64,000 bases of DNA, taken from contig JAJVIP010000002.1 of NCBI GenBank assembly GCA_022072025.1, forward strand, positions 101,356 to 165,355, read 5' to 3'. The notes beneath the pieces are model-generated. The model searched no databases. It worked only from the letters and a program-made list of their open reading frames with translations, and was not told where the DNA came from. A program made the position numbers and the translations under genes. The stretch is from Elusimicrobiota bacterium. Its GTDB lineage: Bacteria > Elusimicrobiota > Elusimicrobia > F11. Shown here one piece after another: positions 632 through 24,004 of the stretch (the stretch's first letter is position 1; the number at the start of each line of letters is the position of its first letter).

Positions 632-3941
<3,310 letters not shown>

Positions 3942-6792: not shown

Positions 6793-7407
6793 ATGAAAGT
6801 AAAAAAATTCCGCATAAAGTCCCGGCTTTCTTCGGTGGCCCGTATATTGAAAATTATTATGGGAGTGAAACAATTGCCGGAGGAACTTGAAGAGTCTTTG
6901 CTTTCTGAGAGTGAAGCATTTTTGAAACATGTGGTTCCGTCAGCCTTCTACACCACTTGGGCTCAGGAAGATGTTCCCTCAGTTCTTAAACCCTCCCTTC
7001 AACAAGCCGGCTTATCCAAAGCTATTGCGGTGAGTGCCCTTGTGGCCACCATTGGATCCGGAGCGGAAGATTACTTGTCGGAGCTTCTCATGAAAGGGGA
7101 AACACAACGCTCCTTGGTTGTTACGGCCCTCAGTGAAGACGCGGCCGATGCCTCCCTTCATTTTCTTATGCGACTCTTAACGGATGACGCCAAAAACGAT
7201 GACTGTGATCTTTCCGATCCCGTTCTTGTATCCGACCCCATTTTCCTTACCGAAATCCTACCGCTGGTGGAAGCCCAACAAGAAGGGGTGACGGTAGATC
7301 ATGCTCAGCATCTTTCTCCTCGATTCACCCGGATTGCCCTTATGGCTTGGTGGCCCATGTCGAAAAAGAAACGCGCTTCATTGGCATCAAAGAAAAAACT
7401 CGCCTGA
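6793..7407 (+). CDS. Unrecognised protein, possibly related to the methionine synthase activation domain
   Basis: I do not recognise this 204-residue protein with confidence. It has a basic N-terminus, no signal peptide and no obvious membrane helix. The order of elements AVSALVATIGSGAEDYLSEL, then RSLVVTALSEDAADA, then LPLVEAQQEGVTVDHAQHLSP resembles the stand-alone vitamin-B12-dependent methionine synthase activation-domain family. In that family an AVTIG strand, a small alpha-helical middle and a GVxLTExxMLxP strand follow in the same order. That similarity is by eye only. It begins 13 bp after secF and its end overlaps or abuts the DUF374-WaaA gene, so it is probably translated from the same message. 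Confidence 0.55.
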   Translation: MKVKKFRIKSRLSSVARILKIIMGVKQLPEELEESLLSESEAFLKHVVPSAFYTTWAQEDVPSVLKPSLQQAGLSKAIAVSALVATIGSGAEDYLSELLMKGETQRSLVVTALSEDAADASLHFLMRLLTDDAKNDDCDLSDPVLVSDPIFLTEILPLVEAQQEGVTVDHAQHLSPRFTRIALMAWWPMSKKKRASLASKKKLA

Positions 7408-9374
7408 ACTCAGCAAAGCCCAAAGCAAGTTTGATTCACATATTGGCCGGCTGGGTGGGAGCCGGATATCTTTATCTGGTGGGAAAAACCTCGTTTGTCC
7501 ACGAATGGGATGATTCCTGCTTTCTTGAATTCCGTCGAAAACTAAAACCCGCCATTTACGCCTTCTGGCACAACGCGCAGGTTTTTCTGGCCTACGCGCA
7601 TCGATCGGAGGGGGTCCATATTATCGTGAGCCGGAGCAAAGATGGGGAATATATAGCGCAAGTCATGAAACGTTTGGGACTTAACGCGGTTCGGGGGTCA
7701 AGCAGTCGTGGGGGGGAATTGGCTCTTCGTGAATTGTGCGATCTGTCGGAAAACGGAAAACAAATCGGATTTACTCCCGATGGTCCGCGGGGGCCAGTGC
7801 AAACTGTTCATGGAGGCGTTGTGATGGCCGCGCAGAAATCAGGCGTGCCCATAATCCCAGCAACCTTTGTTTCAACCCGAGCGATCATTTTTAACAGTTG
7901 GGACAAATTTATGATGCCGCTCCCTTTTTCCCGGATTGTGGTGGCCCACGGCCGCCCTTTTTATATTCCAAAAGACATGGTACTTGAAAAGGCGCAAACC
8001 TTGGTTCGCGAAGCTTTAAATAAAAATGTTCAGGAAGCGGAAATTGTAAAGCGTCAACTGCCCTCTTGGTTCGAAAGTTTCATGGGCGCTGTGTTGTACG
8101 GTTTTTACACCGTTCTTTCGCTTGTTTTTATTCCCGTTGTTTTTATTTTCTCTCTCTTTCGATTTGGAGGAAAAAGAACCTTGTCATTTCTGACAGAACG
8201 GCTTATTCCTCCTGTTCCGATTTCCAGCGGAAAAAAACGGGTGTGGTTGCACGCCGCCTCGGTGGGAGAATGGCAAGCCCTCCGACCCGTTTTACGGCAT
8301 CTCAAAAAGAACCCGCTGCTCGAGTTGATCCTCACAGTCAGCACTCCAGAAGCCAGGCAGTTGGTGAAAAGAGAACAACCTGAAATTCATGTTCAACTTT
8401 TGCCACTCGATTATCCTTTTGTTGTTTCTTCATGGATTAAGCGACTGTGTCCGGCAATGGTTGGAATTGTGGAGACAGAGTTGTGGCCTCGATTGTTAAT
8501 CAATCTAAAAAAGAATCGAATTCCAGTGATGCTGATCAATGGAAGGTTGTCGGATAAGAGTCGGTCTGGCTGGGGTTTGTTTCGTCCGCTTGCAGAGAGA
8601 ATTTTGTCCTCATTTTCGGTTTTGTTTGTGCGAACGGAACTGGACGGTCGGCGATTTGTGGAATTGGGCGCTCCGCCTCAACGGATAAGAGTTGCGGGAA
8701 ACACAAAAATCGACAATTTGACCCCGCGTTATCCTTCCCAAGAAGCACAACAGGAAAAAATGCGTCTCCGAAATGAAATTTTGGGATCCTCTGATGGTAT
8801 TTTGGTTGTGGCCTCAAGCACGTGGGCGGGTGAGGAAAAAAATCTTTTGAGTATTTTTTCTAAAAAGACTGAAAATCGTCTGAGGTTGATTATAGCTCCT
8901 CGTCGACTCGAAAGAATTTCTGAGGTGGTTCGATTGCTGGGGGGGGTGCCTCAGTCTTGGTCCCTTTGGAGCAAAGTTAAAGAATCGCATTCCTGGGAGT
9001 CCGATATATTGCTTGTGGATACGCTCGGTGACTTGAAAGAATTAACGGCCTTGGGCGACATTGGATTTGTTGGCGGTAGTTTGGTTTCGCATGGCGGTCA
9101 AAATCCTCTGGAGTCGGCGGCGAGCGGAATCCCCGTTCTTTTTGGTCCGTCCATGGAAAATTTTCATGAGGAAGCGCGAGATCTCAAGGCTGTAGGGGCC
9201 GCTAGACAAGCTCGGCATGAGGAGGATGTCGTGAATGATATTTTTGAGTTGGCCACCGACGAATCTCTGCGCCTCAGTATGGGAGCGGCAGGGGTTCATT
9301 ATATTGAATCCAAACAAGGGGCCGCTTTGCGAGCGGCCGAAGCCATGAATGAACTTTTACAGGGCGTATGTTAG
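7404..9374 (+). CDS. waaA: DUF374 acyltransferase-like domain fused to Kdo transferase (WaaA/KdtA)
   Basis: Two envelope enzymes are joined in one frame. About the first 215 residues form a DUF374 (LPLAT-like) domain, with AFWHNAQVFLAY (acyltransferase-type His) and FTPDGPRGP. A hydrophobic helix (GFYTVLSLVFIPVVFIFSLF) follows and is the usual N-terminal anchor of WaaA. The remaining part is a complete GT30 Kdo transferase: VWLHAASVGEWQA, VETELWPRLL, LINGRLSDKS, GNTKIDNL and GGSLVSHGGQNPLE. WaaA adds Kdo to lipid IVA. The start is uncertain. The frame opens at TTG 7347, which would overlap the previous gene by 61 bp. CTG 7404 overlaps its stop as CTGA, in the style of this window. TTG 7431 begins just before the first hydrophobic segment. 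I use 7404. Confidence 0.88.
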   Translation: MNSAKPKASLIHILAGWVGAGYLYLVGKTSFVHEWDDSCFLEFRRKLKPAIYAFWHNAQVFLAYAHRSEGVHIIVSRSKDGEYIAQVMKRLGLNAVRGSSSRGGELALRELCDLSENGKQIGFTPDGPRGPVQTVHGGVVMAAQKSGVPIIPATFVSTRAIIFNSWDKFMMPLPFSRIVVAHGRPFYIPKDMVLEKAQTLVREALNKNVQEAEIVKRQLPSWFESFMGAVLYGFYTVLSLVFIPVVFIFSLFRFGGKRTLSFLTERLIPPVPISSGKKRVWLHAASVGEWQALRPVLRHLKKNPLLELILTVSTPEARQLVKREQPEIHVQLLPLDYPFVVSSWIKRLCPAMVGIVETELWPRLLINLKKNRIPVMLINGRLSDKSRSGWGLFRPLAERILSSFSVLFVRTELDGRRFVELGAPPQRIRVAGNTKIDNLTPRYPSQEAQQEKMRLRNEILGSSDGILVVASSTWAGEEKNLLSIFSKKTENRLRLIIAPRRLERISEVVRLLGGVPQSWSLWSKVKESHSWESDILLVDTLGDLKELTALGDIGFVGGSLVSHGGQNPLESAASGIPVLFGPSMENFHEEARDLKAVGAARQARHEEDVVNDIFELATDESLRLSMGAAGVHYIESKQGAALRAAEAMNELLQGVC

Positions 9375-9387
9375 GTTCCCCAAAATC

Positions 9388-10413
9388 ATGAAAATATTGG
9401 TCATTCGATTTTCCAGTTTGGGGGATGTGGTATTAACCACCGCGCTCTATCCCAATTTGCGGGCCAGGTGGCCTGAATCACAAGTAACCGTGTTGACGCG
9501 TCCCGCTTTTGTTTCGGTATTTGATGGAAATCCTTTTGTGGATCACGTGCGTTTATTTGATCCCACCCAACAAACGTTTTCCAAATTGGCCGATGAAATC
9601 CGAATGGAGAAATTTGATGTGATCATAGACTTGCACGGTAACCTGCGGTCCTGGATCATTCGGCTTCTTGCCGGAGGCCCGATGACGGTTGTGGTTGACA
9701 AAGCCACTTGGGCGCGGAATATGGTTCTATATTTCAAACGAACGCCGTCTTCTCTGAAACGATCCGTTCGCGAAAGAATTTTGGATTGTCTTAAACCCCT
9801 GGACGTTCCTTTGGTTCATGAAGATACGCAACTCTATCCTCAAAATATCTCTGGAGTTCTTTCCGCTCACGGAATTGAGCCAAAAAAGAAATTGATTGGC
9901 GTGGCGCCGGGCGCCAAACACAAGACGAAACGTTGGCTTCCTGATCGATTTGCTGATGCCGCAAACCGCTTGGGAGCCTTTCCAAACGCGGAGATTGTGA
10001 TTCTGGGAGATAAAAGTGACAGAGAAGCCGCTGAGCAAGTGTCAAAGTTGGTTCGGGTTCCCTGTAAAAATTTGGCGGGATGGACTGATTTGAAAGAGTT
10101 GATCGATATCATGTCTCAACTTTCCCTTTTGCTCACCAATGATTCGGGGCTCATGCATGTGGCCGAGGCGCTTAAGGTTCCTCTTGTGGCGGTATTTGGA
10201 CCCACGGTGCGCGCTTTTGGGTTTGCCCCTTATCGCGCCACCTCCCGAGTGGCTGAAGTGGTGAACCTGGCATGCCGACCCTGCACCCTTCATGGCGACG
10301 AAAGATGTCCGTTGGGGCATCACCAATGTATGATGGATATCGATGTGAATGCGGTTCTCTATGTGGCGTCTGATTTGTTGGAAGAGGCCCAGGGGGTGGT
10401 TCAGTCGTCATGA
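9388..10413 (+). CDS. Glycosyltransferase family 9, heptosyltransferase-like
   Basis: This is a GT9 enzyme of the LPS heptosyltransferase type, which moves ADP-heptose or a related sugar to the Kdo-lipid A core. The N-terminus MKILVIRFSSLGDVVLTT is typical of WaaC/WaaF. The C-terminal nucleotide-sugar domain has LLLTNDSGLMHVAEAL and AVFGPT, followed by the cysteine pattern CRPCxL..CPLGHHQCM seen in many GT9 proteins. ATG 9388 fits the family start. The in-frame ATG at 9349 lies inside the previous gene. It is translationally linked to waaA (13 bp gap) and overlaps the next glycosyltransferase by 4 bp. Acceptor and heptose type cannot be told. Confidence 0.92.
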   Translation: MKILVIRFSSLGDVVLTTALYPNLRARWPESQVTVLTRPAFVSVFDGNPFVDHVRLFDPTQQTFSKLADEIRMEKFDVIIDLHGNLRSWIIRLLAGGPMTVVVDKATWARNMVLYFKRTPSSLKRSVRERILDCLKPLDVPLVHEDTQLYPQNISGVLSAHGIEPKKKLIGVAPGAKHKTKRWLPDRFADAANRLGAFPNAEIVILGDKSDREAAEQVSKLVRVPCKNLAGWTDLKELIDIMSQLSLLLTNDSGLMHVAEALKVPLVAVFGPTVRAFGFAPYRATSRVAEVVNLACRPCTLHGDERCPLGHHQCMMDIDVNAVLYVASDLLEEAQGVVQSS

Positions 10414-14315: not shown

Positions 14316-15260
14316 CTGAGACGTCTGGCTTACCCTTTGTCCCTCCTCTATTTTGGAGGGTTGCGTCTTGACCGGTGGTGGAAATCCAGACGCGCCGTCA
14401 CGCTTCCCAAACCCGTGGTTTCAATTGGGAACCTCACCTGGGGGGGCACAGGAAAAACGCCGATCCTCATCTATATGGCACGGGGACTAAAAGAACGGGG
14501 CGTTCAACCCGCCATTTTGACCCGGGGGTATGGCGTTGATGAAGTCACTCTGATGAAAGAAAAGTGCCCTGGCGTTTGTTTGGGAGTGGGCCCCCAACGG
14601 TTAAAGAGTGCCGAACAGTTGCTCAAAACCAACTCCCTTGATGTTTTTCTGTTGGATGATGGGTTCCAGCATTGGCGGCTTCGCCGAAATTTAGACATCG
14701 TGTGTATTGATGCCACTTCCCATTTGGAAGATGATTGTTTGTTGCCAGCAGGATCTCTCCGGGAACCTTTGGCGGCATTGGCGAGAGCAGATCTAATTGT
14801 TATCACCCGTTCTCACTTGGTTTCATCCATGGATTTGGAAAAACTACGAGCGCTTATCCACTCAAAAAATCCCTCCAGCCCCATTCTCACAGGGCAGTTC
14901 AAAAGTCAATTGCGCCAAATGAAGGGTTCACATATTGTGCCGTGGAACTTTATCAAAGGAAAAAGGGTGGTGGCCTTGTCAGCCATTGGGAATCCTGACG
15001 CCTTTGAAAAAGAATTGGCCATGGAAGGGGCTCAAATCGTTCCGCTGAGATATCGTGATCATTTTAATTATCAACCCCACGACGCGGAAAAAATAAAGAA
15101 CGCGGTCGAAAAACTGGGGGGGCTGTTGGTCACCACAGAGAAAGATTGGGTCAAATTAAAGCAGTGGGATTTGGACGCGTTGGTTGTCGAACAGACTTTT
15201 TCATTTCAAGAAAAAGACGAATCAAAGTTTTGGGAAGTTTTGAAAAGGGTGATATCTTGA
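14316..15260 (+). CDS. lpxK: Tetraacyldisaccharide 4'-kinase
   Basis: LpxK phosphorylates the 4' position of the lipid A disaccharide, giving lipid IVA. The P-loop is VSIGNLTWGGTGKTP, with the downstream LTRGYG, LLDDGFQHWRL and the PAGSLREPL stretch all in place. There is no ATG or GTG at the 5' end. TTG 14337 would remove the residues before PLSLLY. CTG 14316, with AGG 8 nt upstream, gives an N-terminus RRLAYPLSLLY that matches the length of known LpxK N-termini, so I favour it. The stop overlaps the acyltransferase start as TTGA. Confidence 0.94.
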   Translation: MRRLAYPLSLLYFGGLRLDRWWKSRRAVTLPKPVVSIGNLTWGGTGKTPILIYMARGLKERGVQPAILTRGYGVDEVTLMKEKCPGVCLGVGPQRLKSAEQLLKTNSLDVFLLDDGFQHWRLRRNLDIVCIDATSHLEDDCLLPAGSLREPLAALARADLIVITRSHLVSSMDLEKLRALIHSKNPSSPILTGQFKSQLRQMKGSHIVPWNFIKGKRVVALSAIGNPDAFEKELAMEGAQIVPLRYRDHFNYQPHDAEKIKNAVEKLGGLLVTTEKDWVKLKQWDLDALVVEQTFSFQEKDESKFWEVLKRVIS

Positions 15261-16138
15261 AACGTTTGAAACATGTGGCAGAGTTTGTTTTGGTGAAACT
15301 CCTGGATGGTTTTTTTTGTTCGCTTCCATTCCCCTTGGCCATACAGCTTGGGATGGGATTGGGAGTTTTTCTCTCCAAAATTATTCCCAAGCGAAACGCG
15401 CTTATCTTGTCCAATTTGGAACGGGCTTTTCCAGAAATGCCTGAAAATGAGCGTCACCGAACCGCCTGGGCGGTTTGGAAAAACTTGGGACGCGTGGCTG
15501 TTGAATTTTTGCGGCTTCAGGAGATTCTTAAGAATTCCAAGAAATTTCCTTTCATTTGGGAAGGAGTGGATCAACTGGATAACTTCGTAAAACAGAAGAC
15601 CGGAGTCATTCTATTGGCGGCCCATTATTGTAATTGGGAGGTCCTTGGCGCCGCCATTGCCGCCCGTTTTCCTGAGTTTACCGCGATCGCGCGCCCCATG
15701 CGAAACCCCTATGTGGAAGAATGGGTTCAAAAGAAAAGAGGTTTGGGAGGGACAAGAATTATTCTTCATCGTCAAGCGGTGAAGGCCTCTCTCAAGTGGA
15801 TCAAGGCCCATCATATGATTGGAATACTCATCGATCAGAATCTTTATACGGGAGGGGAATTTGTGTCCTTTTTTGGTCGGCCAGCCGCTACAACCACCTT
15901 GCCGGCTTTGCTTCATGCGAGAACCCAAGCCCCTGTCATCATCACCTATGTTGAGCGAGAAGGCGCTGGATTTCGAGCTCGATTCACGCCCCCCATTTTG
16001 CCCCCGCCTCAAATTACGGGTGAGAATTCCATTAAAGCGCACACCCAGGCCATATCAGACAATATCGAGAATATTATTCGACGATATCCCGAAAACTGGT
16101 TTTGGGTTCATAACCGATGGAAACGGAAAAAAGATTGA
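15257..16138 (+). CDS. Lipid A biosynthesis acyltransferase, LpxL/HtrB family
   Basis: This family adds secondary acyl chains to Kdo2-lipid IVA at the inner membrane. An N-terminal hydrophobic stretch leads into ALILSNLERAFPEM. The catalytic His motif is LLAAHYCNWEVLG (HX4E). LIDQNLYTGGEFVSFFGRPA and FWVHNRWKRKK near the end are characteristic. TTG 15257, with AAAAGGG about 8 nt upstream, overlaps the lpxK stop as TTGA and gives about 293 residues, a usual size. An open frame runs further upstream but inside lpxK. Only one LpxL-type gene is seen here. The DUF374 domain at 7.4 kb is a different LPLAT type. Confidence 0.92.
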   Translation: MKRLKHVAEFVLVKLLDGFFCSLPFPLAIQLGMGLGVFLSKIIPKRNALILSNLERAFPEMPENERHRTAWAVWKNLGRVAVEFLRLQEILKNSKKFPFIWEGVDQLDNFVKQKTGVILLAAHYCNWEVLGAAIAARFPEFTAIARPMRNPYVEEWVQKKRGLGGTRIILHRQAVKASLKWIKAHHMIGILIDQNLYTGGEFVSFFGRPAATTTLPALLHARTQAPVIITYVEREGAGFRARFTPPILPPPQITGENSIKAHTQAISDNIENIIRRYPENWFWVHNRWKRKKD

Positions 16139-17139: not shown

Positions 17140-17148
17140 TTGGTTTCA

Positions 17149-18405
17149 ATGAAATTTTTTCCTCCCTCGAGGCTGATGTTTCTGGCCCTTTTTGGTTTGG
17201 CCCTGAATATTTCCATATCTGTTGCTGAAATTTTGGCTGGTCTTTTACTCATCGAATGGTTCTGGCGGGCGGTGAAATCTTGGAAAAGAACGGGTTTTCA
17301 ACAAGACCAACTCTTTAAAACGCCATTGGATATTCCCATTTTCCTTTTCGTTCTTTGGACCCTTGTTTTGGTGGTGTTTCAACAGACCACCGGAATTCGA
17401 GATATGTTGAGCAACCAATCCGCTTTGCTGCTTTTCTTTTGGGCCGCCAACGCGTTGAACAAAATTGAAAAACAGAAGTTGCAAGAATGGCTTTGTTGGG
17501 GTTCTGTTTTTGTTGGGTTTTGGGGGATTTTGCAGTATGTGGGCAAAGTTAATTATTTGCCTTTTCAGAGAACGTTCGTGATTCCAGAATTCATGACGTC
17601 ATGGCCGCAGTGGTTGGTGCATGAACTCGCGCTTAACAACGAGCGAGCCCAAGGCTTTAGAAGCCATCCAATTACTTATGCTGAAAGTATGGTTCCCGGC
17701 TTTTTCCTTGTTTTGAGTGGAGGGGCTCTTGCTCTTCAGTCCCGGTTTTCAAATGTGAAGAAATCTTTCGGGCTTCTTCTCAGCGTCCTTTTAATGGCCG
17801 GGGGATTTCTGTTTTCGCAAAGTCGCGGCGTTTGGGTGGGTTTGGCCGTTGGGATTCTTGTGTTTGGAGCCCTTCAGGGGCGGCGGTTCTTTTTGACCAC
17901 GTTGCTTGTTTTGTTGGGGTCTATTTCCTTGGTTCTCACTTTTTCTCCAAAAATAAGAGGACGTGTGCTGAGTGTTGTTTCCTCTTCGTCTGGATCGGTG
18001 GGAGATCAGTACAGCAAATCCACCCGTTACGATCTCTGGCGAGGTGCATGGAACGGAATAAAAGAACGTCCGTTGATGGGGCATGGCCTCAGAGGGGTCA
18101 AACTTAAAAGCATCGATCCCATTTCTCTTGAAGAGAGAGTTTGGACGGAAACGCACAACATGTATTTACAAATCACATTGGAGTTGGGAGCGGTGGGGTT
18201 GGGCCTGTTTATTTGGATTCTTGTGGTGATCTGGTGGAAGATTTGGTTTTGGCGTGATCCGTTGCGCCCGGCAATGGGAGGAATGTTTGTCTGTTTTCTC
18301 GTGGCGGGTTTAACCGAATCTTGGACCAAAGATCAAGAAGTGGCCATGATTTTTTGGTTGATGATGGGAATTTTGATGAGTCCGTTCGGTCATGAAGAAG
18401 CTTAA
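17149..18405 (+). CDS. O-antigen ligase/polymerase-like membrane protein (Wzy_C)
   Basis: An integral membrane protein of about 418 residues with roughly ten or more hydrophobic helices. The key feature is the large loop and following helix: RYDLWRGAWNGIKERPLMG, GHGLRG, then TETHNMYLQITLELGAVGL. This fits the Wzy_C domain of O-antigen ligases (WaaL) and polymerases, whose loop Arg and His residues act at the undecaprenyl-linked sugar. SQSRGVWVG in the middle is also typical. ATG 17149 is preferred over TTG 17140. It follows GT9 closely and overlaps gmhB by 14 bp. Ligase versus polymerase cannot be told from sequence. Confidence 0.85.
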   Translation: MKFFPPSRLMFLALFGLALNISISVAEILAGLLLIEWFWRAVKSWKRTGFQQDQLFKTPLDIPIFLFVLWTLVLVVFQQTTGIRDMLSNQSALLLFFWAANALNKIEKQKLQEWLCWGSVFVGFWGILQYVGKVNYLPFQRTFVIPEFMTSWPQWLVHELALNNERAQGFRSHPITYAESMVPGFFLVLSGGALALQSRFSNVKKSFGLLLSVLLMAGGFLFSQSRGVWVGLAVGILVFGALQGRRFFLTTLLVLLGSISLVLTFSPKIRGRVLSVVSSSSGSVGDQYSKSTRYDLWRGAWNGIKERPLMGHGLRGVKLKSIDPISLEERVWTETHNMYLQITLELGAVGLGLFIWILVVIWWKIWFWRDPLRPAMGGMFVCFLVAGLTESWTKDQEVAMIFWLMMGILMSPFGHEEA

Positions 18406-19183: not shown

Positions 19184-19225
19184 GGCCATGCTTGATCCCT
19201 TGTTGGGTTGCGGCTAAGCCGCGAT

Positions 19226-21418
19226 ATGTTTCATTCCAATTCAATGTCCCGATGGATTGTCGCTTTGCTTTTGTTGATGGTGATCAACGGCATGTCTCTG
19301 TTCTCCTGGGTGAAAAAAGACACCAACCCGCTCGCCTGGGACCAATCCACGCATACCAATATCGCTTTTGATTATAGAGATCGATTTCAACAAGGACCGG
19401 TCGACCATTTTTTTCGGCCGGTGGAATGGAATTATCCGCCCCTTTACCATTTGATGTTGGCGCCTACTGTGTCGTATTTCTCTGATGTCACCGACGCAAG
19501 CTCTGTCATTAATTATTTTTATTTGTGTTTGCTGATACTGATGGTGTTTCTGATTGGGAAAAAAATGATGGATGCCTGGGTCGGGTTCACCGCCGCGGCC
19601 ATGGTCACTTGTTATCCCATTGTTGTTGAGCTGAGCCGCAACACCTTAATTGACTTGTCTCTCATCGCGTGGGTTTCGGTGGGTTTTTACTGTCTCCATT
19701 CCTCCGAGAATTTTTCCAAATTAAGGGGGTCCGTACTTTTCGGGGTTTCCTTGGGTCTGGCTATGCTGACCAAATGGACCGCTTTGGCTTATTTTCTTTT
19801 TCCATTGATTCCTTCTTTGTGGAAAGCTCTGAGGTTAAAAAATATCAGAAATATTTTTATCTCTTTTGGCATCAGCTTTTTATTGATGGCTCCGTGGTAT
19901 GTTCAGAATTTTGTTCCGATGATGATCCGAATTCCCAAGCTTTCAGGCTTGCCTCCCGCGAGCGGGACCCACATGTCGGGGCTGGCCAATATATTTTGGT
20001 ATCCACTCAGTTTTGGGGAGCAAATGGGTTTGATTTTTCTTTTGTTATCCATCCCAGGCCTTGTTGTTGTTTTTTGGAAACCAAAACTGAGACCGCTTTT
20101 TCTTTGGTTTTTGGGAACGCTTGTCTTGTTTAGCTTAATCCGAAACAGGAACACGCGCTATTTCGCTCCAGCTCTCCCCGCGGTGGCGCTCTTAACGGCC
20201 TCTTCTTTATCTGTCCTGACAGCCCTGATAGAAAGGCGTCGCCCCCCTTCGTCGCTCTCCGGAGTGGCAACATTGACATCGCAGGTGGCGGTAAAGTCTC
20301 CCTATTTAATTATCTTGTTTGTTACTGCGATGATTTTCTGGGGCGCCAATGTTCAAGGAACGATGAGTCGATCTTATTCTCTGTTGTGGCAATCGGCGCG
20401 TGTGCTGGAAGGTCGTTCCCCTTTGCCCTACGATTGGAAACATCAGGAGATAACAGAAAAGATCAGAGAATTGAATGGGGATCGACCCAAGCCACCCCAT
20501 GTTCTTGTGGCTTCCAATCACCCTTTTTTCTTCGGGCAGAGTTTGCATGTGTCCATGCGATCCAAAGGGATTGTGGATGTTGCATTTCATGGGGCTCGCA
20601 AACGGCGTCCCTTTGAATTTAATGAATTTGTTCTGGTTAAAACGGGAGACTTGGGGCCTGTCAATTCATTAAAAGCCACAAATGCCTGTCTCGAAGTGAT
20701 CAATACTCCCAATTCATGGTTTTTAAAAAGTTATAAACAAAAAGCGAAGTGGGATTTGCCCGAGGGGGCACAAGGGATTCTCTATCAGTTTGATCCGACT
20801 CCTCAACAAAATGCAGAACCATCCCTTATCAATCTTGAATTAAAAGAATTGGAACTCCCGCATATTTCTGCCACTGATGTGGTGGTTTCAGCTCTTCCGC
20901 ATTCCAAAGCAGACACCGCCTTGGGGCGGTTCAAACTTATAACGCTTCAAGCCTCTCGAATAACTTACAAAGGGGTGGTCTTGCGCGACGTAAAAGTTAA
21001 ATTGATAGAACCTCAAATCAATCTTCCTTATTTTTCTGAAACTCAAGAGATACAGCTGGCTCGGTTGGGAGCGCTTGAACCACAGGCCACGATACAGGCG
21101 GAGGATCTGTTGGCTTTACTTGAGAAAAAAGCAAAGTGGCTTCAATCTCCTCAGATTTCATTTGAAGGTTCCTTCATTCGCGTCGCCGGAAATGTATTTG
21201 GAATTCCGATTTCTGTAGCGCTTGAGGTTCAGGCACAAAACAATATTTTTTCAACACGCTTACAACGGCTGGCCATTGCAGGTCTTCCTCTTCCACGGGT
21301 TTTATTTAGGGGCGTTACTGATAGAGATATTAAACTTAATCGCGGTGAAGATTGGGCCTATGACATTCAAATTCCACAGATTAAGGGGACGGGATCCCAA
21401 TTGAGGCTGGGAATTTGA
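19226..21418 (+). CDS. GT39-like membrane glycosyltransferase with extra C-terminal domain
   Basis: A large protein of about 730 residues. The N-terminal 380 residues have about nine or ten hydrophobic helices and GT-C features of the PMT/ArnT type: acidic residues early in the protein, YPPLYHLML, ELSRNTLIDLSLIAW and LAMLTKWTALAYF. Such enzymes use polyprenyl-phosphate sugars. After a soluble middle region, the last 170 residues (from about TALGRFKLITLQASRI to the end) resemble the DUF2993/LmeA lipid-binding fold, with repeated beta-strands and ALEVQAQNN. That assignment is by eye. ATG 19226 is chosen; TTG 19208 lies at the edge of the palindromic element and ATG 19244 is also possible. It ends as TTGA with the next gene. 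Confidence 0.8.
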   Translation: MFHSNSMSRWIVALLLLMVINGMSLFSWVKKDTNPLAWDQSTHTNIAFDYRDRFQQGPVDHFFRPVEWNYPPLYHLMLAPTVSYFSDVTDASSVINYFYLCLLILMVFLIGKKMMDAWVGFTAAAMVTCYPIVVELSRNTLIDLSLIAWVSVGFYCLHSSENFSKLRGSVLFGVSLGLAMLTKWTALAYFLFPLIPSLWKALRLKNIRNIFISFGISFLLMAPWYVQNFVPMMIRIPKLSGLPPASGTHMSGLANIFWYPLSFGEQMGLIFLLLSIPGLVVVFWKPKLRPLFLWFLGTLVLFSLIRNRNTRYFAPALPAVALLTASSLSVLTALIERRRPPSSLSGVATLTSQVAVKSPYLIILFVTAMIFWGANVQGTMSRSYSLLWQSARVLEGRSPLPYDWKHQEITEKIRELNGDRPKPPHVLVASNHPFFFGQSLHVSMRSKGIVDVAFHGARKRRPFEFNEFVLVKTGDLGPVNSLKATNACLEVINTPNSWFLKSYKQKAKWDLPEGAQGILYQFDPTPQQNAEPSLINLELKELELPHISATDVVVSALPHSKADTALGRFKLITLQASRITYKGVVLRDVKVKLIEPQINLPYFSETQEIQLARLGALEPQATIQAEDLLALLEKKAKWLQSPQISFEGSFIRVAGNVFGIPISVALEVQAQNNIFSTRLQRLAIAGLPLPRVLFRGVTDRDIKLNRGEDWAYDIQIPQIKGTGSQLRLGI

Positions 21419-22221
21419 AAAAAAAATCCACAGTAAAGGCTCTGTCGTTATTTCTTGTTGCCGCCTTTGGGAATATGGGGATGGTGGGTTTGAGAAGTGA
21501 AAATCCCATCGTTTTTAAAGAAATTCAAAACAGTGCCTTTTGTTTGGGGGAGAAACTCACTTTCGTCATCAAATATGAATTCATTAAAGCCGGTTTTGCG
21601 ACCATGACTGTGACGGAAGGGCCACAGATTCAAGGACGGTCGACTATTCATTTGGAAAGTCGAGCGGAATCCACGGGATTTGTTGATTCATTTTTCAAGG
21701 TTCGGGACTTTAATGCCTCAACGGCCGACGAAAAATCGTTGATCTCTTTTAACTTTCACCAGAATCTTAAAGAAGGTCATTATAAAGTGATTCGAAACAC
21801 GTCATTTGACTATGACAAATTGATTTATAAATTTAATCGCGTTAGAAAAGGGAAATTGGTGGAGCGAGAAGGTCCCATCAGTCAACCTTTGTTCGATATG
21901 CTTTCTGCCTTCTTCTATGTGAGGACTTTGCCTTTGAAATTGGGAAGCCGCTATGAAGTGACGGTTTTTTCAGACGAGGAAGTCTATCCATTGGCTGTCA
22001 ATGTTCTTCCTTCGCTACAGAAAGTGAACGTGCAAGCGGGCAAGTTTGAATGCCTTCGAATTGAACCGGTGTTTCTGGGAGACGGTATTTTTAAAGCCAA
22101 AGATGGAAAAATGACCATCTGGCTCACGAACGATGAAAAGAAAATGCCGGTGCTTATTCGTTCGAAAGTTTTCATTGGTTCATTTGACGCAGAATTAACC
22201 GACTTTTCGTTTGGAAAATAA
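21415..22221 (+). CDS. DUF3108 domain protein, probably periplasmic
   Basis: A protein of 268 residues with an N-terminal signal peptide (STVKALSLFLVAAFG) and no later helix. The mature part fits the DUF3108 family of beta-rich envelope proteins: FCLGEKLTFVIKYEF, KAGFATMTV, then a YKVIRNTSFDYDK strand and the closing PVLIRSKVFIGSFDAELTDF. Its function is unknown. The family is often found among envelope genes. The start is TTG 21415, which overlaps the upstream stop as TTGA, with GAGG upstream. A small gap with a promoter-like box follows, so it probably ends its unit. Confidence 0.82.
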   Translation: MKKKSTVKALSLFLVAAFGNMGMVGLRSENPIVFKEIQNSAFCLGEKLTFVIKYEFIKAGFATMTVTEGPQIQGRSTIHLESRAESTGFVDSFFKVRDFNASTADEKSLISFNFHQNLKEGHYKVIRNTSFDYDKLIYKFNRVRKGKLVEREGPISQPLFDMLSAFFYVRTLPLKLGSRYEVTVFSDEEVYPLAVNVLPSLQKVNVQAGKFECLRIEPVFLGDGIFKAKDGKMTIWLTNDEKKMPVLIRSKVFIGSFDAELTDFSFGK

Positions 22222-22271: not shown

Positions 22272-23279
22272 ATGAAAATAAAAAGGAACCCGAAGGTAGA
22301 TTCGGGCTTGGCCAATTGGGTCAAACAATTTAAAGAGGTGCCGGTCCTGGTGGTGGGTGACCTGATGGTGGACTTGTCTTACCGTGGACCGGCGGAGAGG
22401 ATTTCACCCGAAGCTCCTGTTCCTGTCATTCATGTTCAAGAGTTTTTGTTTATGCCAGGAGGAGCCGGAAATGTTGTTAACAACTTGGCGGTTCTGGGGG
22501 CTCGTCCGACCCTGGTCTCGTTGGTCGGAGACGACAAATCTGGCAAAGATATCGGAGAAGATTTAAGACGTCGAGGGATTGACGTGACCCCTGTGCTGGT
22601 TGATAACAGTCGGCCCACCATCACCAAACACCGCGTTTTTGCCGGTCATCAACAAGTGGCGCGTTTTGATTTTGAAAAGCGCGGAGCTGTATCGAAAGAG
22701 TTGGGGGAGAAAATATTAAATTCCTTAAAGCGACTCATTCCTCAACAGAAGGCCGTTGTGATCTCTGATTACGGCAAGGGCCTGATTACCCCCGAGGTGA
22801 TTCGAACCTGTTTACGAGCGGCCAAACTCCATCATATTCCTGTTATTGTGGACCCCAAAATTGAGAATTTTTTGTCCTATAAAGGGGTTGACTGCATCAC
22901 CCCCAACACCAAAGAGGCTGTTGAAGGGATGCGAGTTTTTTCTCCCAAAACTGAACAAGAGCTTCTGTCGCTGGGTTTAAAAATCCTTAAGAAACTCAAA
23001 TGCAATTCTTTATTGATTACCCGGGGTGAGAAAGGGATGACTCTTTTTGATTCTCATGTCGCTCCTCGGACCATTCCGGCCTTGGCTCAAGAAGTGTATG
23101 ACGTCACTGGCGCGGGCGACACGGTGGTGTCTACTTTTTCTTTGGCTCGTGCCGTGGGGGCGCCCCATTTTATCGCGGCTCAATTGGCCAACTTGGCCGC
23201 CAGCCTGGTTGTGGCCAAGGTGGGCACAGCGGTGGTCAGTCAGCAAGAGCTCTTGGAGAGAATTAAACATCGACCATGA
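22272..23279 (+). CDS. rfaE1: D-glycero-beta-D-manno-heptose-7-phosphate kinase (HldE N-terminal type)
   Basis: A PfkB/ribokinase-fold kinase that phosphorylates heptose 7-phosphate at position 1. It has VVGDLMVDLSYRGPAERISP, the sugar-binding PGGAGNVVNNLAVLGA and the anion-hole motif YDVTGAGDTVVSTFSL with catalytic Asp at about residue 283. At 335 residues it has only the kinase half of HldE; the adenylyltransferase half (RfaE2) must be encoded elsewhere. ATG 22272 follows AAGGGAAA. It overlaps kdsB by 4 bp and heads the Kdo/LPS-export genes. Confidence 0.95.
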   Translation: MKIKRNPKVDSGLANWVKQFKEVPVLVVGDLMVDLSYRGPAERISPEAPVPVIHVQEFLFMPGGAGNVVNNLAVLGARPTLVSLVGDDKSGKDIGEDLRRRGIDVTPVLVDNSRPTITKHRVFAGHQQVARFDFEKRGAVSKELGEKILNSLKRLIPQQKAVVISDYGKGLITPEVIRTCLRAAKLHHIPVIVDPKIENFLSYKGVDCITPNTKEAVEGMRVFSPKTEQELLSLGLKILKKLKCNSLLITRGEKGMTLFDSHVAPRTIPALAQEVYDVTGAGDTVVSTFSLARAVGAPHFIAAQLANLAASLVVAKVGTAVVSQQELLERIKHRP

Positions 23280-24004
23280 TGTCAGTTTTAGGGGTCATTC
23301 CTGCTCGATATGCCTCAACAAGATTTCCAGGGAAACCTTTGGCCATGATCCATGGCAAACCCATGATCGCGTGGGTTTATGAAAGAGCCAGGAGAGCGTT
23401 GCCCCAGGTGGTGGTCGCGACGGATGATCAACGGATCAAGACGGCGGTGGAAAATTTTGGTGGAAGGGCGATAATGACGCCTCGTTCGCTGCAAAGTGGA
23501 ACTGAAAGAATGGCGTATGTAGCCCGAAAGATGAAAGTGTCCTATTACGTGAATGTTCAAGGTGATGAACCTTTGATTCGAGCGGGAACCATTCGAGCGG
23601 CTGTGGCCTTGTCAATGAAAAGGAAGGCGATCGCGACCCCGGTGACGGATTTGGCCTTTCAGGATTTCAATAATGAAAACGTGGTGAAAGTGGCGGTGGG
23701 GCACCACGGTCGAGCCTTATATTTTTCCAGAGCTCCCATTCCCTACCCACGAAATCAAATGGCCGGGATCACACCGTTGAAACATGTGGGACTCTATGTC
23801 TATCCTCGGAAAGATTTGTTACGGTTTGTCAGCCTTCCATCAACGCCATTGGAAAAGACCGAGATGCTTGAACAGTTGAGAGCCCTTTATTATGGGATCC
23901 CGATTTTTGTGGTCAAAACCAAATTCGACTCGATGGGAGTGGATACCCCGGCAGACTTGAGAAAAGTTCTAAAGAATTGGATCAAATTGAATAAGGAGCA
24001 GTGA
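23276..24004 (+). CDS. kdsB: 3-deoxy-manno-octulosonate cytidylyltransferase
   Basis: KdsB activates Kdo with CTP to CMP-Kdo, the donor for WaaA. It carries the nucleotide-binding N-terminus [28 protein letters not shown], the [12 protein letters not shown] metal and substrate site, and the [13 protein letters not shown] motif. 242 residues is normal. ATG 23276 overlaps the kinase stop as ATGA; the second ATG at 23279 is equally possible. It is followed after 1 bp by pyrG, which makes the CTP it needs. Confidence 0.96.

Follow-up and report, generated by a model that had tools for sequence, protein, structure and literature searches.

The family formerly designated DUF374 is now called LpxJ and is a lipid A 3'-secondary acyltransferase (PMC6148475); in Helicobacter, Campylobacter, Wolinella and Rickettsia it adds the 3'-secondary acyl chain to lipid A (PMC6148475, PMC6286764). 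Six residues of R. typhi LpxJ (W60, H61, D86, D132, W172 and D173) are essential, with H61 as the proposed catalytic base and D132 as its proposed dyad partner, and the enzyme has no HX4D motif (PMC6148475). The Kdo transferase KdtA (WaaA, GT30) adds one to four Kdo residues depending on the species, and the review that assigns roles to its active-site residues names E31 of A. aeolicus WaaA as the proposed catalytic base and R212 as a phosphate contact (PMC6286764). Studied LpxJ proteins stand alone, whereas the LpxJ described here is the N-terminal half of a protein and is joined to KdtA.

The LpxJ::KdtA gene occupies a single plus-strand frame in the window (the whole stretch of 64,000 nucleotides that was analysed), with no internal stop before the terminal stop at 9372–9374 (Table 1). 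The earlier note had proposed one open frame carrying DUF374 and a complete GT30 WaaA, and the profile searches bear this out for both parts (E = 1e-27 and E = 8e-81, respectively). There is no ATG in the frame, which offers in-frame TTG codons at 7347 and 7431 and a CTG at 7404. The most likely start is TTG 7431, because the starts of related genes align with it and because CTG 7404, which was rejected, overlaps the stop of the upstream gene; TTG 7347 or CTG 7404 are possible, the former with a 61 bp overlap with the upstream gene. The choice of start has no effect on the finding of a fusion, and residues are numbered here on the translated frame P0001 (window 7404–9371). The host genome is a draft of 3.64 Mb in 43 contigs with an estimated completeness of 100%. 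No second DUF374 and no second KdtA were detected in this genome, so that both LpxJ and KdtA were found in it solely as parts of the fusion.

The first half belongs to the LpxJ family, with a predicted function in 3'-secondary acylation of lipid A. Pfam DUF374 matched P0001 residues 64–131 (7593–7796) with E = 1.3e-27 and 95.6 bits against a cut-off of 26.8, which disposes of the possibility, raised in the earlier note, that this half is not DUF374. Comparison with R. typhi LpxJ, based on published residue numbers and spacing, located all six essential residues, with successive His–Asp, Asp–Asp and Asp–Asp gaps of 24, 46 and 41 residues in the fusion and 25, 46 and 41 in R. typhi. None of these six residues varies across 11 fusion proteins or across 25 diverse LpxJ rows. 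As in the studied LpxJ proteins, with which this half shares family, essential residues and near-equal spacing, HX4D/E is absent (H56 is followed by NAQV and then F). A structure model of the half (pLDDT 92.8, pTM 0.89) has an LPLAT-type fold according to Foldseek, the nearest solved folds being A. baumannii LpxM (1e-6), T. maritima PlsC (1e-6) and M. smegmatis PatA (1e-5). The "acyl or related step" of the earlier note can be made more specific: since DUF374 is the characterised LpxJ (PMC6148475), the step can be named, and DUF374 no longer counts as a domain whose function is unknown.

The second half is a complete KdtA/WaaA and a predicted Kdo transferase. NCBIfam KdtA models matched P0001 232–652 (E = 8e-81), and the PRK05749.1-4 match covers positions 4–421 of 425 but scores under the 438-bit cut-off of that equivalog model; Pfam Glycos_transf_N matched P0001 272–437 (E = 1.8e-50), above its cut-off. 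A phmmer comparison of the fusion with A. aeolicus WaaA (2xci) gave E = 3e-34, and 2xci was also the best Foldseek match of the whole model (E = 1.6e-22, TM 0.75 by target length), which shows a WaaA-like GT-B fold. All seven active-site residues of A. aeolicus WaaA (G30, E31, E98, K162, R212, N273 and E276; 2xci chain numbering is native + 21 by our own count) are aligned and identical. Family, active-site residues and fold are thus shared with A. aeolicus WaaA and with E. coli KdtA. In the fusion, as in KdtA of the E. coli type, an anchor helix precedes the GT-B domain, the difference from studied KdtA being that about 215 acyltransferase residues come ahead of the anchor; A. aeolicus WaaA appears to be without the anchor segment, as its native E31 corresponds to a residue that is number 65 from the beginning of the anchor in the fusion.

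The WaaA anchor helix noted earlier is present as a hydrophobic helix between the two domains, and hydropathy identifies it as the sole strongly hydrophobic stretch of the fusion protein. The full-length model (12 full-length rows, pTM 0.79), on which the relative placement of the domains is based, contains the anchor as one continuous 33-residue helix beginning three residues past the C-terminal helix of LpxJ, so that a short joint would connect the two heads. The donor substrates, acyl-ACP for LpxJ and CMP-Kdo for KdtA (an enzyme that E. coli requires for normal growth), are both cytosolic, and a single membrane crossing would therefore leave one domain on the wrong side. If both heads are active, the anchor would need either a re-entrant path or a position within the inner leaflet, and the fusion would constrain the topology of KdtA, as an anchor that spans the membrane once fits poorly with an acyl-ACP-dependent domain at the N-terminus.

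Table 1 Features of the LpxJ::KdtA gene and its surroundings (window positions; residue numbers as in P0001).
Feature	Position	Strand	Basis or remark
Conserved hypothetical protein directly upstream	6793..7407	+	No Pfam or NCBIfam family
LpxJ::KdtA fusion gene	7431..9374	+	~647 aa; open frame, start by alignment to relatives, conservation
LpxJ (DUF374) lipid A acyltransferase domain (predicted)	7437..8057	+	Pfam DUF374, structure model, folds
Trp55-His56	7566..7571	+	R. typhi LpxJ W60-H61, by spacing
Asp80	7641..7643	+	R. typhi LpxJ D86
Asp126 in DGPRGP	7779..7781	+	R. typhi LpxJ D132, proposed His partner
Trp166-Asp167	7899..7904	+	R. typhi LpxJ W172-D173
KdtA membrane-anchor helix between domains	8067..8165 (about P0001 225-257)	+	Hydropathy, model
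KdtA/WaaA (GT30) Kdo transferase domain (predicted)	8097..9374	+	NCBIfam PRK05749, phmmer and Foldseek to 2xci
Gly288-Glu289	8265..8270	+	A. aeolicus WaaA G30-E31; alignment
Arg500	8901..8903	+	A. aeolicus WaaA R212; alignment
GT9 heptosyltransferase (WaaF-like)	9349..10413	+	TIGR02195 above cut-off, Pfam GT9; overlaps fusion's end
LpxK lipid A 4'-kinase	14337..15260	+	PF02606 E=8e-69
LpxL-type lipid A acyltransferase	15254..16138	+	PF03279 E=3e-51
O-antigen ligase-like protein (Wzy_C)	17140..18405	+	PF04932
KdsB-like CMP-Kdo synthetase	23276..24004	+	PF02348 E=9e-51

LpxK, LpxL, heptosyltransferases and KdsB are among the neighbours of the fusion gene, which is therefore part of a lipid A/core cluster. 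Upstream lie yajC, secD, secF and the conserved hypothetical gene; downstream, the GT9 heptosyltransferase is followed by two GT4 genes, a GT2 gene and a polysaccharide deacetylase, and further on by LpxK, LpxL, a second GT9, the O-antigen ligase-like gene, a GmhB-like HAD phosphatase, an HldE-type kinase and KdsB. A single LpxC is encoded elsewhere on the same contig. The hypothetical gene directly follows secF in the window and in locus L060, and a gene of similar size (~190–205 aa) and similar start was observed upstream of lpxJ/kdtA in sister classes (L060:1378-1956, L065:464-1042). A HEAT-repeat protein (2778–3941) adjoins yajC-secD-secF on its upstream side, and the stretch 19208–22221 within the LPS cluster encodes a DUF3108 protein preceded by a PMT-type membrane glycosyltransferase that has a long C-terminal extension.

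Frame analysis of lpxJ and kdtA in 60 relatives and ~295 Elusimicrobiota genomes found both enzymes in one frame in 18 Elusimicrobiota genomes from several families: the window's own family, in which all four genomes have the fusion, family f4 with eight, and family f8 with two genus groups. Among these relatives is contig G006:C18, from the same class. Fusions persist across whole families, down to ~30% identity to the window protein, while in most other members of the class lpxJ and kdtA are two genes in unchanged order that mostly overlap or have a few bases between them. Among named genomes, a scan recovered the fusion in Elusimicrobia bacterium NC_groundwater_250 (JACPBF010000001.1), in the cultured strains Gluconobacter cerevisiae LMG 27748 and G. 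albidus NBRC 3250, and in Neokomagataea, another alphaproteobacterial MAG and an unclassified bacterium. Within the family of Gluconobacter (250 genomes), 26 of the best 30 loci combine a single frame with active-site motifs for each of the two enzymes. The fusion is not rare and turns up repeatedly, both in Elusimicrobiota and among acetic acid bacteria. No fusion on a plasmid was found. Several candidates were rejected: G028 has two TGA codons between the parts, G143, G201, G180 and G245 match both domains but contain stops, and open frames of 600–1000 aa at split-KdtA matches, mostly in GC-rich genomes, were in the examined cases an upstream frame overlapping lpxJ in another reading frame.

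This conservation also settles whether the joined frame is real. A lost stop or a frameshift in sequencing or assembly could merge two genes, and the genome is a draft in 43 contigs; yet 17 further genomes of the phylum, as well as Gluconobacter strains in culture, have the same single frame, and the residue alignment crosses the joint between LpxJ and KdtA smoothly in 11 fusion proteins. An artefact, which the earlier note had named as an outcome that would undo its reading, is refuted by the conservation of the one-frame fusion across genomes and retains a negligible probability; the joined frame is real.

The fused and split forms are interleaved on phylogenetic trees. On the Elusimicrobiota KdtA and LpxJ trees the fused state needs 4–5 changes, at least 3 of them forced by well-supported branches, and on a cross-phyla KdtA tree (127 rows) it needs 8, at least 5 of them so forced, with the qualification that these counts do not separate gain of the fusion from its loss. 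Adjacent lpxJ-kdtA pairs, with the same enzymes in the same order but as two proteins, occur in alphaproteobacteria, Desulfuromonadales, Methylomirabilota, Omnitrophota and other Elusimicrobiota. In several cases a lone stop codon parts two genes that share a frame (L035, L036 and L038 in Elusimicrobia; L084, L086, L087, L089 and L096 in alphaproteobacteria), and such pairs are either one mutation short of fusion or products of fission. The simplest reading is repeated fusion from an adjacent gene pair, given how widely such split pairs occur and that several of them have one in-frame stop between the genes. A related arrangement forms a single clade on the trees: in sister classes of Elusimicrobiota, LpxJ is likewise N-terminal to an inner-core glycosyltransferase, but the partner is a GT9 heptosyltransferase (~555 aa in all) and kdtA is separate, just upstream. 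Two of these LpxJ::GT9 loci (L060:3273-4940 and L065:2902-4581) were checked against Pfam, and L061–L064 and L066–L069 are similar by layout.

Judging from domain content, conserved residues and genomic context, we consider the gene product likely to be a natural lipid A enzyme with two heads, which acts on lipid IVA on the cytosolic side of the membrane. The LpxJ half would acylate the 3'-linked chain on the distal glucosamine of lipid IVA, and the C-terminal KdtA would move Kdo from CMP-Kdo to the 6'-hydroxyl of that same glucosamine, and both domains would work on the cytosolic side of the inner membrane, to which the intervening KdtA anchor helix would hold them. We infer that both heads are active and that the acylated and glycosylated positions are those proposed here; chain-length and acceptor specificity of LpxJ differ among species. 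In five related fusion pairs, dN/dS was 0.05–0.26 for LpxJ and 0.08–0.35 for KdtA (values for relatives, not for the window gene), indicating purifying selection on both halves of related fusions. Either order of the two reactions appears chemically open, since known LpxJ enzymes do not need Kdo to be added first and WaaA takes three to six acyl chains (PMC6286764). It is plausible that a single protein coordinates acylation and Kdo transfer, and joining may improve stoichiometry or the hand-over of lipid IVA. We regard it as on the whole unlikely that the enzyme is obligately coupled, with lipid IVA handed between its heads, and has a KdtA anchor that does not cross the membrane; coupling need not matter, as most relatives run the two reactions on separate proteins.

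The main competitor of a functional advantage is a neutral origin, in which adjacent and co-oriented lpxJ and kdtA occasionally lose the stop between them and both heads stay active with nothing coordinated. The adjacency and frequent overlap of the pair in relatives, the several pairs in one frame with a single intervening stop and the interleaving of both forms on the trees are all in its favour, and we rate it at somewhat under an even chance, given that the fusions are kept across whole families at identities as low as those cited above and that the union of LpxJ with a different LPS glycosyltransferase in sister classes hints at a benefit. It overlaps with the two-headed enzyme proposed here, because each head is active in both. 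The LpxJ half could also be a catalytically dead scaffold or a domain that holds substrate for KdtA, as fused enzymes sometimes lose one activity and the genome encodes a second PF03279 acyltransferase. The invariance of the six essential residues, the purifying selection on this half in related fusions and the position of the second PF03279 gene, which lies beside a diacylglycerol-type glycosyltransferase and away from the LPS cluster, make this improbable. We give equally little credence to acylation of a lipid other than lipid A, such as a phospholipid or glycolipid: the fold does resemble PlsC and PatA, but LpxM is the top Foldseek match, the LpxJ active-site signature is present, and the domain is fused to KdtA or a heptosyltransferase and located in a lipid A cluster. 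A two-headed enzyme with both activities on lipid IVA remains our preferred reading.

The view of the earlier note that no such fusion has been studied agrees with our survey of the open-licence literature (subscription papers lie outside it), where we found no paper on an LpxJ::KdtA or LpxJ::GT9 fusion and no biochemistry of a fused form; the component families are known, and their covalent union appears to be undescribed. The fusions link LpxJ physically to early LPS assembly and indicate that late steps of lipid A synthesis have repeatedly been joined in one polypeptide, with KdtA as the partner or, in sister classes, a heptosyltransferase. Gluconobacter offers culturable hosts in which a coupling of acylation to Kdo transfer can be put to the test.

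The second PF03279 (LpxL-family) gene is encoded on another contig, outside the LPS cluster (L190:5867-6730, G000:C27), and probably serves another lipid. Its neighbour (L190:6734-7891) is a glycosyltransferase that we take to resemble monogalactosyldiacylglycerol synthases, and the pair possibly represents a second acylated glycolipid pathway.
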